Shown piece after piece: positions 6,090 through 11,597 of a stretch of 64,000 nt of DNA; within the stretch, counting starts at the first letter, position 1; each line of letters opens with the position of its first letter. A model generated the notes under the pieces. That model was not told where the DNA came from and made no database searches. It saw only the letters and a list, made by a program, of their open reading frames with translations. The position numbers were made by a program, and so were the translations under genes. Origin of the DNA: Clostridia bacterium (GTDB lineage: Bacteria > Bacillota_A > Clostridia > UBA1212 > UBA1255); assembly GCA_017522515.1 (NCBI GenBank), contig JAFWZH010000133.1:62001-126000 (forward strand), written 5' to 3'.

Positions 6090-9000
6090 TTATTGTGTTA
6101 CATATGCATATGCAGAATCACCATACATCATCATCGCTTTTACCAATTCTACAAGTTCTGTGTTCGTCGAGCTTTGCATACTGTATGCGTATGATTCAAT
6201 ACTGTAAACGGCCGTACCGCCAAGTTCGTTTCCTTCGCTGTCACACACAGTAAAGCATACTGTTTTACTCATTTGGGAAACATCCAAATCCTCAAACAAA
6301 AATGTTTTAACCGGCGTTCCCTCAGGCCCTGTAACTTCTTCAAAAATATCTTCTGTAAGCGTTGCCAGTACATTGTTGTTTGTATCTGTTACTTTTACCA
6401 CAACACCTTCAGATTCGTCTACATCAAAATATCCGCGTATTGCCACCTTATTTTCAAGGAACAATGTCATCCCCACCCATTTAGCACTGTCTTCTTCTGC
6501 CTTCGACGGAATGCTCTTCACGGTTTTTAACTCTCGCAGTGCAGAAGTTCCCCAAGAAGCTTGCTCATCTGTGAGTTTACTATCGGCAAGATTATCAACA
6601 TTATGTTTCATATATACTTGTGCCGCTGCCCCGTAACGAAGCATATCAACAAGCAGCGTGCGGAATTCCGTATTAGCGGAACTGCCTAACATAGAATAAA
6701 TATATGAGGTTACTTTATATTCAAACACTTCTCCGGTATATGTAATTCCATCAATTTCTGCATACAAAGTAGCCGAAATAGTGTCATTCATCATTTGAGG
6801 AGCTATATCCTCAAATGCGAATGAATAGCATTGTGTTCCGTATAAAATTTCCTCCTTTGCTTCTAAAATTACAGTCTTTCCGGCAAAAACAGCAGTTATA
6901 TACGGTTTACTGTACCCTGCCGCATCAAATTCTGCTTTTTTAACGAGGAATTTAACCGTTATATCATTTTGCAAAGAAAGATTTGTTCCGTTTATGGCAA
7001 GTGGCGAAATTGTCTCTGAATCCTGACTCACAAAAGTAAGTACACCGTTTTCTGCTGCATACTGACTTGTTACATCTACTATTTCGCCCGTTTCTTCTGT
7101 GGAATAAATTTCTACAATTTCAAGCTTGAGTTCTGTAGAACCTACAGCATCTTCACTTACGTTAAAAGTAAGCTCTCCCATAACGCCTGATTTCGTAATA
7201 TTTTCTGCATTAGCCCAAGTCATTATATAAGGTTTTTTCGCAATGGTAGGACTAGCTGTAAATACAGCCTTTTCAAAAGCACTGCCGCTACACGTTTCTT
7301 TTAATGATAGATATGTTGTATCAAAAGCGACCTTTACCGCAATATAGCTTATACCCATATTATCCGGTATGGATAATGTTATTTTTTTCGTTCCTCCTGC
7401 AATTACAGAGGCATCATCAATACTGACAGCACTTTTTACCGTAGTGTATACAGAAAAAGCCACAGTATCACTATATTGTATGCTTTCCGTCCCGGAGGAG
7501 CCCATTAAAACTGCAAAATAATTGCCTACAGCAGATGGTGTCTTAAACTGCACTGTCAAAGCACATCCCATAGTAATTACGTCAACAGGTGCATCTGTTC
7601 CGGGTACTTTTCCTTCTCTGTAAATCTCAATTCTTTCATTTTTAATTGCTGTGTCATTATAATCCACGGTGGCTTGGATGTTTGTGCCGGCATCGTATTC
7701 TGTAGCATCAAGTGTAAGCAGGGCATTTTCCGAGCCTGTTGGTTCAAGGCAAACATTATCAATATAAATTGCTCTGCCACAAGTACCCATAGCCACTGCC
7801 TTCGTATATGAAACTAATGCGATTGACGTAGTTTTCTTTAAAATACCATCACCATCATAAATACTTGCCTGTCTGTAATATCTTTCTGAGTAGTCTGTTG
7901 CCTTTCCTGTAGGCACTTTATCTTTTGAATATGCAACAGAGGCAATCAATTTACTATCCAAATAAAACCTTATAACACCGCCGGCATTATCTACAGCCTT
8001 AAATGTATGAAAACCATCATTTATACTACTATCAAATTCAAAGCTCTCTGTAATTTGCGAGAGTATGCCTGTTTCTTCGTCAAGACATATAACATATATC
8101 TCCATATATGTAGGATAAATACTGACTCCTATACCGCTCTTTGCTACAGATGCATCACCATTTAATTTATTTGATGCAAAAAAAGTATTACTGCTACCGT
8201 CATTTTCATATCCAAAATTAAAAATAAATCCTGCAAAATGACTGGCGTTGTCCTTGGGCTGAATATCCGAGGAAAAAATGTATGGTACATTATTTGCATA
8301 TCTATTGTCATTTACTAAGCTGTCATTCATTAAATAAATATACTTACTGCTACCTGATACAATATACTTAGATTCGTTACTGCCTTCATTTGGTGTCCAT
8401 GTGGCTCTCAAAGGATTTCGTATACGTCCAAAACTTTTATATGATGTGTTTACAAGAGAAGAGTTATTTGTTACACGGCTGTCATTAAGATTGTAAAACT
8501 CTCTTGTGAGTGCACTAAGACACTCCGGCACAACCTCCAATTTAAAACTTGTCTCTACTGTAGTGTATATTTGACAAAACATTGCATCATAATTCTCTGC
8601 TTGTGCCAAATTATCAAAAATACCAACATACGCTATATCGACTGTACCGCTCTCAGTAGTAACACCACCAATTCTCAAGGATTTTATAGTAGCGCAAAGC
8701 TGTTCTTTTGTAGGTCCCGACTCATTCTCCCCCAAAAGCTCTGTGTAAATATCGTATGTCAGAAGGCGCCACTCACCATCACAAAGCATTTTATCTTTCT
8801 CTAAGAGACCTGCTCCCGACAAGGACCAACCTCCGGCTGTAGTCTCGGGATATATATAGGAATTAGCTATAGCAGAATCTGCCGACGCTCTGTATTTGAT
8901 TGCCAGTGTTTTACCGTTCCAAGTTACATCTGTCATGTCAATCGTAAAATACGGATCAGAAACATTCACTGTGGTAAATGTACTGTAATCTTCACCTTTT

Positions 9001-9176
9001 GTACAAGACACTCCGTTTGATAAATCCGGCGAAAAAGGAGCCGTCTCACCTGCCATAATTGTAACTCCGGAATACTCGTAAATGGAGTTTGCAGCTGCAG
9101 CGTTAATAGGCATTACAATAGGCAAAAATAAGCTTAATGCTATAAAAAATGCAATAAAATGCTTTGTATTTTTCAT
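6090..9176 (-). CDS. Large secreted multidomain surface protein with LamG-like, cohesin-like and repeated C-terminal modules
   Basis: A 1028-residue exported protein I cannot name. Residues 1-29 are a clear signal peptide. What follows looks like a beta-sandwich of carbohydrate-binding type (about 30-205), a laminin-G/ConA-like domain (about 240-480), an Ig-like stretch (about 485-577), a cohesin-like domain (about 580-716) and two copies of a roughly 130-residue module (about 726-860 and 899-1028). The module ends in a helix with the pattern YGxxAxxY (YGAAAQVY, YGDSAYAY). The same module occurs twice in the protein at 9767-11527. There is no LPxTG anchor or second membrane span, so it is either released or held by another protein. 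It has its own consensus promoter after the terminator of the 40-residue peptide gene. Function, perhaps glycan or surface binding, is inference. Confidence 0.72.
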   Translation of the reverse strand: MKNTKHFIAFFIALSLFLPIVMPINAAAANSIYEYSGVTIMAGETAPFSPDLSNGVSCTKGEDYSTFTTVNVSDPYFTIDMTDVTWNGKTLAIKYRASADSAIANSYIYPETTAGGWSLSGAGLLEKDKMLCDGEWRLLTYDIYTELLGENESGPTKEQLCATIKSLRIGGVTTESGTVDIAYVGIFDNLAQAENYDAMFCQIYTTVETSFKLEVVPECLSALTREFYNLNDSRVTNNSSLVNTSYKSFGRIRNPLRATWTPNEGSNESKYIVSGSSKYIYLMNDSLVNDNRYANNVPYIFSSDIQPKDNASHFAGFIFNFGYENDGSSNTFFASNKLNGDASVAKSGIGVSIYPTYMEIYVICLDEETGILSQITESFEFDSSINDGFHTFKAVDNAGGVIRFYLDSKLIASVAYSKDKVPTGKATDYSERYYRQASIYDGDGILKKTTSIALVSYTKAVAMGTCGRAIYIDNVCLEPTGSENALLTLDATEYDAGTNIQATVDYNDTAIKNERIEIYREGKVPGTDAPVDVITMGCALTVQFKTPSAVGNYFAVLMGSSGTESIQYSDTVAFSVYTTVKSAVSIDDASVIAGGTKKITLSIPDNMGISYIAVKVAFDTTYLSLKETCSGSAFEKAVFTASPTIAKKPYIMTWANAENITKSGVMGELTFNVSEDAVGSTELKLEIVEIYSTEETGEIVDVTSQYAAENGVLTFVSQDSETISPLAINGTNLSLQNDITVKFLVKKAEFDAAGYSKPYITAVFAGKTVILEAKEEILYGTQCYSFAFEDIAPQMMNDTISATLYAEIDGITYTGEVFEYKVTSYIYSMLGSSANTEFRTLLVDMLRYGAAAQVYMKHNVDNLADSKLTDEQASWGTSALRELKTVKSIPSKAEEDSAKWVGMTLFLENKVAIRGYFDVDESEGVVVKVTDTNNNVLATLTEDIFEEVTGPEGTPVKTFLFEDLDVSQMSKTVCFTVCDSEGNELGGTAVYSIESYAYSMQSSTNTELVELVKAMMMYGDSAYAYVTQ

Positions 9177-9205
9177 AAAACCGCTCCTAAGAAGAATCTT
9201 TTTTT

Positions 9206-9234
9206 AGTTTATATCATAATATCAATAAAGTCAA
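9206..9234 (-). promoter_or_regulatory. Promoter of the large secreted protein gene
   Basis: On the minus strand TTGACT and TAAACT are separated by 17 bases. It sits just after the T-tract of the preceding terminator, about 30 bases before the start codon, whose ribosome site is TAGGAG. Confidence 0.65.
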
Positions 9235-9241
9235 ACAAAAA

Positions 9242-9270
9242 AAAATGCAGCCTTAAAACGACTGCATTTT
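9242..9270 (-). terminator. Terminator after the 40-residue peptide gene
   Basis: Arms AAAATGCAG and CTGCATTTT with a short loop. On the minus strand the stem runs into a long T-tract. The sequence is nearly the same as the terminator at 9532-9555, which points to a duplicated gene-plus-terminator unit. Confidence 0.85.
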
Positions 9271-9289
9271 TTATCGAGTTGATTATTAA

Positions 9290-9412
9290 TCAAACCCAAT
9301 CCGGAGGAAGCTCGATTCCACCTTCGTTGGTACCGCCATTACCATTACTTGCGCAGATAACATCTTCACAAGCGAAAGCAATAACCTCAACAACAGGATT
9401 AATAAACTCCAT
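9290..9412 (-). CDS. Small peptide B (40 aa), twin of peptide A
   Basis: A 40-codon gene with ATG start, a purine-rich ribosome site (GAGAGGGG) about ten bases upstream and a stop just before a strong terminator. The peptide starts MEFINPVVEVIAF, has CEDVIC in the middle, then an Asn/Gly-rich stretch and the C-terminus GGIELPPDWV. It shares the PVVEV segment, the EDxIC(A/T)S segment and the last ten residues with peptide A. There is no signal peptide or membrane span. It has its own TTGACA/TAAAAT promoter. I recall short clostridial ORFs of the type KPxxExxxFxxEDxIxxSG in similar settings but know of no assigned function. The gene call rests on the conserved twin, the promoter and the terminator. 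Confidence 0.75.
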   Translation of the reverse strand: MEFINPVVEVIAFACEDVICASNGNGGTNEGGIELPPDWV

Positions 9413-9496
9413 ACGTTACACCCCTCTCGTATTTAATTTACACAAACCACCGATTTAAGTAATAACTTAGTTTTGATAGTCTATATACTCATTTTC

Positions 9497-9525
9497 ATTT
9501 TATATGTAAAGCATCTTTTTGTCAA
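9497..9525 (-). promoter_or_regulatory. Consensus promoter of small peptide B
   Basis: On the minus strand TTGACA, a 17-base spacer and TAAAAT. This is one of the best sigma-A-type promoters in the window. It begins directly downstream of the peptide A terminator and gives an 80-90 base leader before the peptide B start. Confidence 0.75.
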
Positions 9526-9531
9526 TAAAAA

Positions 9532-9555
9532 AATGCAGCCTTAAAAGGCTGCATT
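9532..9555 (-). terminator. Terminator after the 56-residue peptide gene
   Basis: Perfect nine-base arms AATGCAGCC and GGCTGCATT with a six-base loop, followed on the minus strand by a T-tract. It matches the terminator after peptide B closely, including flanking sequence. Confidence 0.88.
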
Positions 9556-9574
9556 CTTTTATCAAAGTAGTATA

Positions 9575-9745
9575 TTATACCCAATCCGGAGGAAGATCAA
9601 TTCCGCCACCGCCTGTGCCTACATTTGAAAGATCATCGTCTTCACCGAAGAATCCACCGGCACCACCAGTAGTACTTGTGCAGATAATGTCTTCAACTTG
9701 GAAGTTAACTACTTCTACAACGGGTAAACCAAAAATCTTTTTCAT
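9575..9745 (-). CDS. Small peptide A (56 aa), twin of peptide B
   Basis: A 56-codon gene starting 21 bases after the stop of the secreted protein at 9767-11527, with AAGGAG before its ATG, so it is co-transcribed with that gene. The peptide begins MKKIFGLPVVEVVNFQ, continues VEDIICTSTTGG, has a Gly-rich part with the acidic GEDDD, and ends GGIDLPPDWV. It aligns with peptide B at both ends and differs mainly by a longer Gly-rich middle. No signal peptide, no membrane span, one cysteine. The paired arrangement (secreted protein, peptide, terminator) suggests a role in secretion, anchoring or signalling, but that is a guess; a modified-peptide precursor is another possibility, although no maturation enzyme lies nearby. 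Confidence 0.78.
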   Translation of the reverse strand: MKKIFGLPVVEVVNFQVEDIICTSTTGGAGGFFGEDDDLSNVGTGGGGIDLPPDWV

Positions 9746-9766
9746 AGTATTCGTCTCCTTCCTATA

Positions 9767-11527
9767 TTATGCTACGTATGCAGCTGCTGAATCGCCGTAT
9801 ACCATTAATGCCTTAACCAATTTGCACATAGGATCTGTTGCTGTGTCTTTATTAGCAGCATAAGCGCCTATGCCGTAAGTAAGTGTACCACTGATTGCTA
9901 TGCCATTAGCGTTGCATGCAGTGAATTTTACTGCCTGTCTAAATTGGTGAGGTCCAATAACGTCAACAACTACTCTGTAGCCATTGTCAAGAGTCTCAAA
10001 CTCTGTGATGTCGTATGTTTTATTGCCAACAGTTACTTTAACAATCTCAGCTTCGCCTTCAAATCTAACTGCGAGGTTTACTGTATCTCCAAAGTATACT
10101 GTTCCTGCTTTCCATGATACTGTAGGATCTAAAACATCTGTTGTAATTGAAGGAACTGTTGAGTCAGCCACATAGTTGTATACACGATCCTTATCAGTAT
10201 CAGAAAGATCACTGTTTACGAGAGCATCAACATTATAATCTCTATAATCTTGTGCTGCTGCACCATAGTTAAGTAAATCCTTTAAGAGGTTTACAAGCTG
10301 TGCGCTTGAGCTAGCATCAGCCAACATTGCGTCGCAGTAAGTTTTTACACTGTAAACGCTCTCATCAACCTTAGCATCGTCAACATAAAGTTCAGCTGTG
10401 AACTCGTCGCCCATTTGCTGAGGTCCGAAGTTACCAAATGAATATACAAACTTGTCGCCATCAGCTACGCCTGTGATTTTCTCACCATCAACCATAACGT
10501 AAGCGTTTGCATCAACACCTTCTGCATAATAGTTAATTGCAATACCATCGCTCAATGTAAGAGAAGCACCGGCAAAAGCAGGATCAACTACTGCAGGAGC
10601 GAATCCTGTGTTAGTTCCCGGCAAAGGATTGTTAACTGTTGCATCGAATGTATAGCCAACAATACCATAGTTATCAACATGCAAACCACCTGTTGTTACA
10701 ATAGAACCATCTGAGTTAGCAGCAACACCGATGTTTACGTTAGCTTGCTTGCAAACAGAAACATTGCTTGCTGTAACTTGTGTTGCACCATAAGCATCTG
10801 CTACAGACATTGCTGTGTAGTAATTACCGCTTATTGAAGAAAGTGTAACTGTTGAAATCAATGTGTTATCATAGTAAACTTTCATTACACCAGCGTTGTT
10901 ATCAATAACCTGTACAGTCTTCCATGTGCTGAGTGAACCTTCAGCAAGATCAACTGTGTAGAATACTTGACCTGCTGTACCGTCATAAGCACCGATTTTG
11001 ATTGTGTCTTTTGTTGCATCTGCTACATCAAAAGCGATAGAAATACCTTTAGATGTATTAGAAACAGCTTGAGAACCAGTAGCACTTTCAAGACCTAAAC
11101 GCAAAGCTGCAAAATGACCTGCTACAAAAGCAGAATCCAATTTTACATCCATTGTTACATGGTATGAAGAACCGATGTAATAATCATGTACATGGTACGC
11201 ACCAGGGTTGAAATTCATGTAGTTGTGATACTTTGAATCACTGTCAACACCCCAGAAAGGTCCGTCACCATCATTACCTGTAATATGCTTAGGTGTACTA
11301 TGATCTCTCAAGTAACCAACATATGGTGCACCACGAAGATAACCATCATGTGAAACAGTTAAATCCTCAGCATCAAACCAGAAACCAGCTTTGTTTGCTG
11401 AATTCGCAACACCGGCATATGTGCTGAGAAGCTCTGTGCTATATGCAAAAGCAAACATACTGAAACTTGCAATAAGTAAAGCTACTGCAATGCAAAGAGC
11501 GAGAACTTTTGAAATTGTTCTTTTCAT
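9767..11527 (-). CDS. Secreted surface protein with LamG-like domain and two C-terminal YGxxAxxY modules
   Basis: A 586-residue exported protein. Residues 1-28 form a signal peptide (basic start, hydrophobic core, AFA end). A laminin-G/ConA-like domain spans about 110-260, including KVYYDNTLISTV, which resembles RFYLDSKLIASV in the neighbouring secreted protein. Two copies of the shared module follow at about 318-435 (ending YGAAAQDY) and 470-586 (ending YGDSAAAY). No sortase motif is present. The start at 11527 is set by GGAGG eight bases upstream; the ATG at 11542 lies on top of that ribosome site. Small peptide A follows in the same transcript. The close likeness to the second secreted protein indicates a paralogous pair. 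The role is not known. Confidence 0.74.
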   Translation of the reverse strand: MKRTISKVLALCIAVALLIASFSMFAFAYSTELLSTYAGVANSANKAGFWFDAEDLTVSHDGYLRGAPYVGYLRDHSTPKHITGNDGDGPFWGVDSDSKYHNYMNFNPGAYHVHDYYIGSSYHVTMDVKLDSAFVAGHFAALRLGLESATGSQAVSNTSKGISIAFDVADATKDTIKIGAYDGTAGQVFYTVDLAEGSLSTWKTVQVIDNNAGVMKVYYDNTLISTVTLSSISGNYYTAMSVADAYGATQVTASNVSVCKQANVNIGVAANSDGSIVTTGGLHVDNYGIVGYTFDATVNNPLPGTNTGFAPAVVDPAFAGASLTLSDGIAINYYAEGVDANAYVMVDGEKITGVADGDKFVYSFGNFGPQQMGDEFTAELYVDDAKVDESVYSVKTYCDAMLADASSSAQLVNLLKDLLNYGAAAQDYRDYNVDALVNSDLSDTDKDRVYNYVADSTVPSITTDVLDPTVSWKAGTVYFGDTVNLAVRFEGEAEIVKVTVGNKTYDITEFETLDNGYRVVVDVIGPHQFRQAVKFTACNANGIAISGTLTYGIGAYAANKDTATDPMCKLVKALMVYGDSAAAYVA

Positions 11528-11597
11528 TTTTTTTACCTCCACTAATTATTTTTCTAAACCCCCATGAAAAGGAAGGGATTCGCTTTAGCAATTTTAC

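Follow-up and report, generated by a model that had tools for sequence, protein, structure and literature searches.

The locus raises the question of what two genes of 56 and 40 codons, lying in tandem between genes for two paralogous secreted-type proteins of 591 and 1028 aa, do for the cell that carries them, a bacterium akin to gut Clostridia. The whole stretch of 64 000 nucleotides that was analysed is referred to as the window, and its relevant features are collected in table 1. Both ORFs were found on the minus strand where the first-pass annotation had placed them, and the segments that it had described as common to the two peptides (PVVEV, ED(I/V)IC(A/T)S and GGI(D/E)LPPDWV) were present, as were similar terminators behind both genes and the near-consensus promoter of the 40-aa gene. 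The claimed base-level match of the 3′ flanks held from the final codons through the hairpin, reaching little beyond the latter. In the stretch 9100–9800, two terminator-like hairpins were found against a mean of 0.4 in shuffled sequences, and six promoter-like sites against 2.9 expected; one such site, at 9234–9206, belongs to the 1028-aa gene. The 56-aa gene starts 21 nt past the stop codon of the 591-aa gene and is preceded by AAGGAG. The listed start of the 591-aa gene is GTG, with an ATG five codons further in, and the 1028-aa protein was likewise judged by eye to have a signal-peptide-like N-terminus.

Table 1. Features of the window around the two peptide genes.
Feature	Position	Strand	Remarks
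56-aa precursor-like peptide gene	9575..9745	-	leader-like residues 1–24, tail GGIDLPPDWV
40-aa paralogue, precursor-like	9290..9412	-	leader-like residues 1–22, tail GGIELPPDWV
Leader-like part, 56-aa peptide	9674..9745	-	F5xxP8, D19, I20, S24
Leader-like part, 40-aa peptide	9347..9412	-	F3xxP6, D17, V18, S22; same register
C-terminal tail GGIDLPPDWV, 56-aa peptide	9578..9607	-	sequence; motif like lipoprotein ends in relatives
C-terminal tail GGIELPPDWV, 40-aa peptide	9293..9322	-	sequence
591-aa secreted-type protein	9767..11542	-	signal-peptide-like N-terminal stretch (by eye), partner-type C-terminal domain
1028-aa paralogous secreted-type protein	6090..9176	-	C-terminal domain as in the 591-aa protein; downstream of the 40-aa gene
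Sigma-70-like promoter, 40-aa gene	9497..9525	-	TTGACA-17-TAAAAT, 11/12 matches
Terminator-like hairpin after the 56-aa gene	9532..9555	-	symmetrical; minus-strand T run
Terminator-like hairpin after the 40-aa gene	9240..9272	-	hairpin scan

Coding constraint, for which a check had been proposed, was assessed against the nearest genome compared (G001), which shares 24% of the sampled 31-mers of the window. dN/dS was 0.28 for the 56-aa gene (Sd 6 and Nd 6 over 39 and 129 sites, respectively) and 0.39 for the 40-aa gene (Sd 2 and Nd 3 over 25 and 92 sites); these counts of changes are small, and the wide peptide family described below is the stronger support for constraint. The 162-nt spacer between the two genes (9413–9574) was 99% identical to that of G001, above the level of the surrounding synonymous sites (dS 0.08–0.20), which suggests regulatory constraint or a recent exchange; no Rfam family was found over threshold in the spacer.

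A first search returned eight close relatives of the window peptides, and a profile built from 15 sequences then matched 130 small proteins at E ≤ 10, the window's own included, among 5.8 billion proteins; the 120 matches listed of these 130 had lengths of 32–73 aa and E ≤ 0.037. Scanning of both window peptides and seven relatives gave no meaningful Pfam or NCBIfam match. The best-kept part of the family was the N-terminus, (F/Y)xxP..EV..F..ED(I/V)xxxS, and the remainder was variable and often acidic. The C-terminus, which had been taken for the constrained end, fared less well: many members do have a GGI(E/V)LPxxW tail, but it is the leader that is kept, and the tail may vanish in distant members. 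Peptide genes were scattered round the genomes, many of them beside surface proteins, with up to 11 hits per genome in the order (E ≤ 1) and up to 19 in one genome of the class (E ≤ 0.01).

Division into a leader and a core was indicated by comparison of paralogues. Leader identity was 0.46 among the nine peptides of G007 and 0.48 among the six of G024 (0.23 and 0.22, respectively, after shuffling), and core identity was 0.37 against 0.29 shuffled and 0.33 against 0.31 shuffled; the leader is thus clearly conserved and the core less so, as is characteristic of the short ORF of a RiPP precursor. The cores of these peptides were acidic in 15/15 (net charge −2 to −6) and as short as 8–13 aa. A D-x4-S pattern was found in 166 of 181 unique sequences and was missing from 15. 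Counted from the anchoring Ser as +3, the 162 unique sequences with enough N-terminus had F/Y at −17 (i.e. −19 from the Ser) in 151, P at −14 (−16 from the Ser) in 113 and I/V at −2 (−4 from the Ser) in 157, and V/M/I/L occupied −12, the Leu place of YxxPxL, in about 91%. The Ser was near-invariant and was preceded at a distance of two residues by T, C or A in about 89%. Many tails (GGGGIELPDHEW) are devoid of Ser and Thr, so that any phosphorylation would fall on a leader-proximal Ser/Thr. The motif F5xxP8 of the 56-aa peptide resembles known RRE-binding motifs. Two peptides combine a similar leader with an unusual core, longer or Cys-rich, namely a 117-aa peptide of Kandleria vitulina (L205:6441-6794, recognised by eye) and L103:9938-10138 in G027; they suggest that one leader type serves diverse cores.

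The enzymes that might act on such precursors were sought in the same genomes. The first-pass annotation had stated that no modification enzyme lies nearby, which is true of the 64-kb window, where profiles of the four cassette proteins gave no match while both peptides and both domain proteins were recovered, and untrue of G001, where the cassette is present; it is shown in relatives only, G001 being the nearest of them. Peptide genes of G027 have as neighbours a P-loop kinase gene, a PqqD gene (PF05402, 5e-13) and a gene for a signal-peptidase-like protein; the same run occurs in relatives, where it also includes an NTP_transf_5 nucleotidyltransferase, encoded separately or as part of a fusion. 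G001 encodes an HprK-like kinase, a PqqD leader-binding protein, an S26-like peptidase and NTP_transf_5, the last two fused. A second PqqD match to PF05402 had an E-value of 1.3e-13, and the NTP_transf_5 matches ranged from 2.7e-34 to 1.6e-42. The match to S26-type signal peptidases reached 5.7e-8 at best, below the family cut-off; all 12 aligned S26-like sequences had the GxSMxPxL Ser motif and VLHR, the His of which we equate with that of Ser-His signal peptidases. The AF2 model of the kinase (pLDDT 94.4) matched PEPCK at 1.7e-7 with a TM of 0.56 and HprK/P (1kkm) at 3.2e-5 with a TM of 0.36–0.47, and G, K, T and H were invariant in its GK(S/T)TH P-loop; as modelled, the cassette kinase has a PEPCK/HprK fold with a P-loop.

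Neighbouring genes were tabulated for the best 80 of 574 kinase loci, from which all named kinase loci are taken. Among these 80, a PqqD ORF lay within 1.8 kb of the kinase in 67, an S26-like ORF within 3.5 kb in 47 and both in 44, leaving 36 in which the recognised pair was missing beside the kinase; NTP_transf_5 was found within 6 kb in 31 and an ABC protein within 6 kb in 22. A peptide was recognised in 24 of the same 80 loci; in 20 of these it shared the strand of the kinase and lay within 1.7 kb of it. The gene order in G109 and G220 was secreted protein, peptide, kinase, PqqD, S26-like, ABC exporter and NTP_transf_5, and the ABC protein of G109 (L270) matched ABC_membrane (4e-33) and ABC_tran. 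According to record titles, kinase carriers belong to Oscillospiraceae, Lachnospiraceae, Kandleria, Solobacterium, Bacteroidales, Synergistaceae and Atopobiaceae; peptide and cassette occur together also in MAGs of Bacteroidales, Solobacterium and Synergistaceae, and no peptide was seen in the Atopobiaceae kinase locus. In a Synergistaceae MAG, four tandem peptide genes (L231:715-1336) directly precede kinase, PqqD, S26 and NTP_transf_5.

Co-occurrence of peptide and kinase was then counted. Among 31 genomes of the order (peptide E ≤ 0.05, kinase E < 1e-20; peptide profile seeded from nine of the 31 and kinase query from one), both were found in 17, the peptide only in none, the kinase only in three (G013, G019 and G030) and neither in 11, and all 17 peptide genomes had a PF05402 match, as is expected where an RRE protein serves a RiPP precursor. 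Among 393 genomes of the class with at least 90% completeness, 48 had the peptide and the cassette-type kinase, two the peptide only, nine the kinase only and 334 neither, with a full-length kinase cut-off (E < 1e-62) that was chosen after viewing a two-peaked list; the entries just past it (5e-62 and 1.5e-61) aligned to the model from position 66 or 72 onwards only. At a looser kinase threshold (E ≤ 1e-5), the peptide was found in 48/103 genomes with and in 2/290 without the kinase, and the 46 genomes with only other kinase hits gave no peptide hit. Kinship was allowed for by genus count only, which gave 32 genera with both, one with the peptide only, four with the kinase only and 182 with neither; in two genera some members carry both and others neither. 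When the order from which the kinase profile was built is left out, 38 genomes had both, two the peptide only and eight the kinase only.

The exceptions were inspected individually. G250 (97% complete) has four peptides, three of them directly behind domain proteins (L255–L258), and neither kinase nor PqqD was found in it, though its congeners G307 and G363 have both; G273 has a single weak peptide hit (E 0.006) and neither kinase nor PqqD. Among the kinase-only genomes, no peptide was detected in G019 and G123, which carry PqqD and S26 along with the kinase, and G041 has one lone kinase and another with S26. No PqqD or S26 was seen beside the kinase in G144, G262, G275 and G347, nor in G165 and G199, where the kinase ORF itself is hidden by the ORF filter; a PF05402 match was present somewhere in all nine kinase-only genomes of the class.

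Both peptides are probably precursors of an unnamed RiPP-type system in which a shared cassette would act in trans on scattered precursors. They are likely to be precursors because the family is nearly confined to genomes with the cassette kinase and often stands behind genes for large secreted proteins. Of the roles that had been considered for the pair, a modified-peptide precursor is favoured over a secretion or anchoring tag and a toxin/immunity element, since the family tracks the cassette kinase and often adjoins its gene.

The closest known systems are the phosphorylated and phosphoglycosylated lasso systems (paeninodin, pseudomycoidin and BsfA), which have in common with the cassette an HPr-kinase-like enzyme, a PqqD-type B1, a nucleotidyltransferase and sometimes an ABC protein. 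PMC10368454 describes the leader of the lasso precursor BsfA as having Y-17, P-14, L-12 and I-2, and BsfK, a distant relative of HPr kinase (under 35% identity), as phosphorylating BsfA Ser3 with the help of the PqqD-type BsfB1. The family has a YxxP-type leader with equal spacing to the Ser (−17/−14/−2/+3), and the combination of YxxPxL leader and PqqD-type B1 that marks lasso systems was found. PMC12710340 describes PqqD-type RREs that bind W/Y/LxxP/L/I as spread across RiPP classes. The system differs from lasso systems in that no B2 transglutaminase-like protease was over cut-off in the order and no cyclase-type match lay on the cassette contigs, an S26-like peptidase being present instead; the cores are short and Gly-rich/acidic, and the precursors are scattered, many of them paired with a secreted protein. 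HPr-rel-A (NCBIfam TIGR04353 etc.) and SynChlorMet (TIGR04249 ScmC) likewise pair an HprK-related protein with one of the PqqD family, but the cassette proteins of G007, G021 and G001 scored 26.2 against a curated cut-off of 125 bits and 20.1 against one of 35 bits. The NiSOD maturation protease (TIGR02754), which cuts a leader, and type I signal peptidases resemble the small S26-like protein with its GxSMxPxL; the cassette protein scored 20.4 against the NiSOD protease cut-off of 63 bits, and the partner genes differ. Judged by anatomy, the predicted system is of RiPP type and falls outside the defining lasso features and the HPr-rel-A and SynChlorMet cut-offs; no description of this peptide–cassette system was found in open-access papers.

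On the proposed mechanism, the PqqD-type protein would bind the F/YxxP leader motif and present the peptide to the HprK-like kinase, which would phosphorylate the near-invariant Ser (S24 or S22). That phosphate may receive a sugar from the NTP_transf_5 enzyme, on the model of pseudomycoidin, in which a nucleotidyltransferase puts a hexose on a phosphorylated peptide (PMC8498205), and the small S26-like peptidase, in place of the lasso B2 peptidase, would remove the leader near the conserved Ser. These steps are deduced from the BsfA spacing, the RRE motif and the pseudomycoidin precedent. The tail peptide would leave the cell, using the ABC exporter in those cassettes that include one; export is likewise a deduction, because an ABC protein is found in just 22 of the 80 loci and that of L206 (285 aa, without ABC_membrane) is not of the fused exporter type. 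At the surface, it may act with the neighbouring secreted protein.

The evidence for such a partnership lies in gene position and shared tails. The C-terminal partner domain was found in 82 proteins of the order and in 16 of its 31 genomes, among them 14 of the 17 with peptides. The association with secreted proteins that had been noticed in the window proved real and general: 32 of the 62 peptide hits of the order lay directly behind a domain protein, at 19–189 nt as measured between the ends of the profile hits, where 0.03 would be expected from uniform placement. Fifty of the 82 domain proteins had no recognised peptide behind them, including most of those in G001–G003 (one of ten paired in G001). 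In the best 80 of the 574 kinase loci, 8 of 29 peptides stood directly behind a domain protein, and several other peptides of the named loci follow proteins with a different C-terminal end. A second such end, roughly Y..Y.d..G...TvYgd by eye, precedes peptides in L052, L057, L217, L220, L238, L270 and L271 and is perhaps a sister domain type.

Tails were shared with lipoproteins. In L207 the peptide tail ELPFVPAE has its counterpart in the lipoprotein tail IELPFVPAF, and in L211 IELPVIPID has its counterpart in IELPVIPIG. The tail motif ended 13/47 lipobox ORFs near the cassette and 7/146 elsewhere in the loci, counted from crude ORF lists that contain spurious ORFs and with three of the 13 stemming from genomes fetched twice; one of the seven distant ORFs is an apparent true lipoprotein of G021 with the end GIVLPDDVW. 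Because cassette-encoded lipoproteins often end in the same motif as the peptides, the tail is still notable, and IxLPxxW may be a docking tag. A surface function with the secreted protein is what gene position and shared tails would suggest. We tentatively propose, as a possibility open to considerable doubt, a trans phospho-RiPP machine with a repertoire of peptides, each dedicated to one secreted protein and docking with its tail on the C-terminal Ig-like domain of that protein, a lipoprotein with the same tail standing at the membrane, so that the peptides would decide which surface proteins are tethered.

Other explanations were weighed against the same data. With the machinery unchanged, the register could be a different one, with the leader cut after the Ser, which would then be a cleavage-site residue and not a phospho-acceptor, the kinase modifying something else. 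Type I signal peptidases require small residues at −3 and −1, and the T, C or A two residues ahead of a near-invariant Ser would supply them; at low score, the cassette S26-like enzymes also show likeness to signal peptidases and to the NiSOD maturation protease. This is nevertheless rather unlikely, as the −17/−14/−2/+3 spacing fits BsfA, in which the +3 Ser is phosphorylated (PMC10368454). Retention of the lasso fold, with a diverged or unlinked cyclase and B2 protease, appears most improbable. The leader motif is alike, and an HPr-kinase-like enzyme, PqqD and nucleotidyltransferase are described for lasso clusters (PMC8498205), but the B2 peptidase family PF13471 was over cut-off in 0/31 genomes of the order, where a single hit below threshold fell within a 735-aa frame of G009, and each of the 20 kinase-carrying genomes of the order lacked an Asn_synthase (PF00733) match on its cassette-kinase contig, these contigs being short. 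Some PF00733 match exists in 27 of the 31 genomes; of the three closest to the window, G002 has none and G001 and G003 have only 40-residue matches. Cores of 8–13 aa leave scant room for a ring and a threaded tail.

Two readings place the function elsewhere. The unprocessed peptide might be a cytoplasmic helper that binds its secreted partner co- or post-translationally and maintains its competence for export, with no RiPP chemistry; short gaps such as the 21 nt in the window fit translational coupling, as does the place of the genes behind secreted proteins, and G250 has peptide–secreted protein pairs without the cassette. Such a role is quite unlikely, as it leaves the co-occurrence with the cassette-type kinase (48/2/9/334) unexplained, peptides adjoin cassettes in loci that have no secreted domain protein, the four in L231 for example, and most domain proteins have no peptide. 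It is very unlikely that the mature tail is a secreted pheromone or bacteriocin-like product with the secreted proteins as incidental neighbours or receptors. The RiPP-like cassette, the exporter-type ABC protein of some loci and the variable cores of paralogues would suit it, but up to 11 scattered hits per genome, many beside surface proteins, would not; no recurrent immunity or sensor gene was seen by eye among the loci listed, and uniformly acidic cores are unusual for pore-forming bacteriocins.

Gut Clostridia have many short ‘hypothetical’ ORFs of this kind, and those scanned here belong to no Pfam or NCBIfam family; their tie to a cassette of kinase, RRE protein, peptidase and nucleotidyltransferase gives them a testable biochemical role. 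This tie also provides probable substrates for gene sets of the kind that lie outside lasso clusters, and it suggests a possible use of RiPP machinery in housekeeping at the surface rather than in warfare. Should the pairing with secreted proteins prove functional, gut bacteria would have a new means of controlling which surface proteins they display, and if the docking reading is true, a surface-assembly system built from RiPPs would be common in gut Clostridia.

A subgroup with Cys-containing cores (DIIFAS...C) was also observed, at L250:11473-11613, L212:5017 and L216:11506; its genes sit about 1.5 kb after the kinase start, inside the cassette run.
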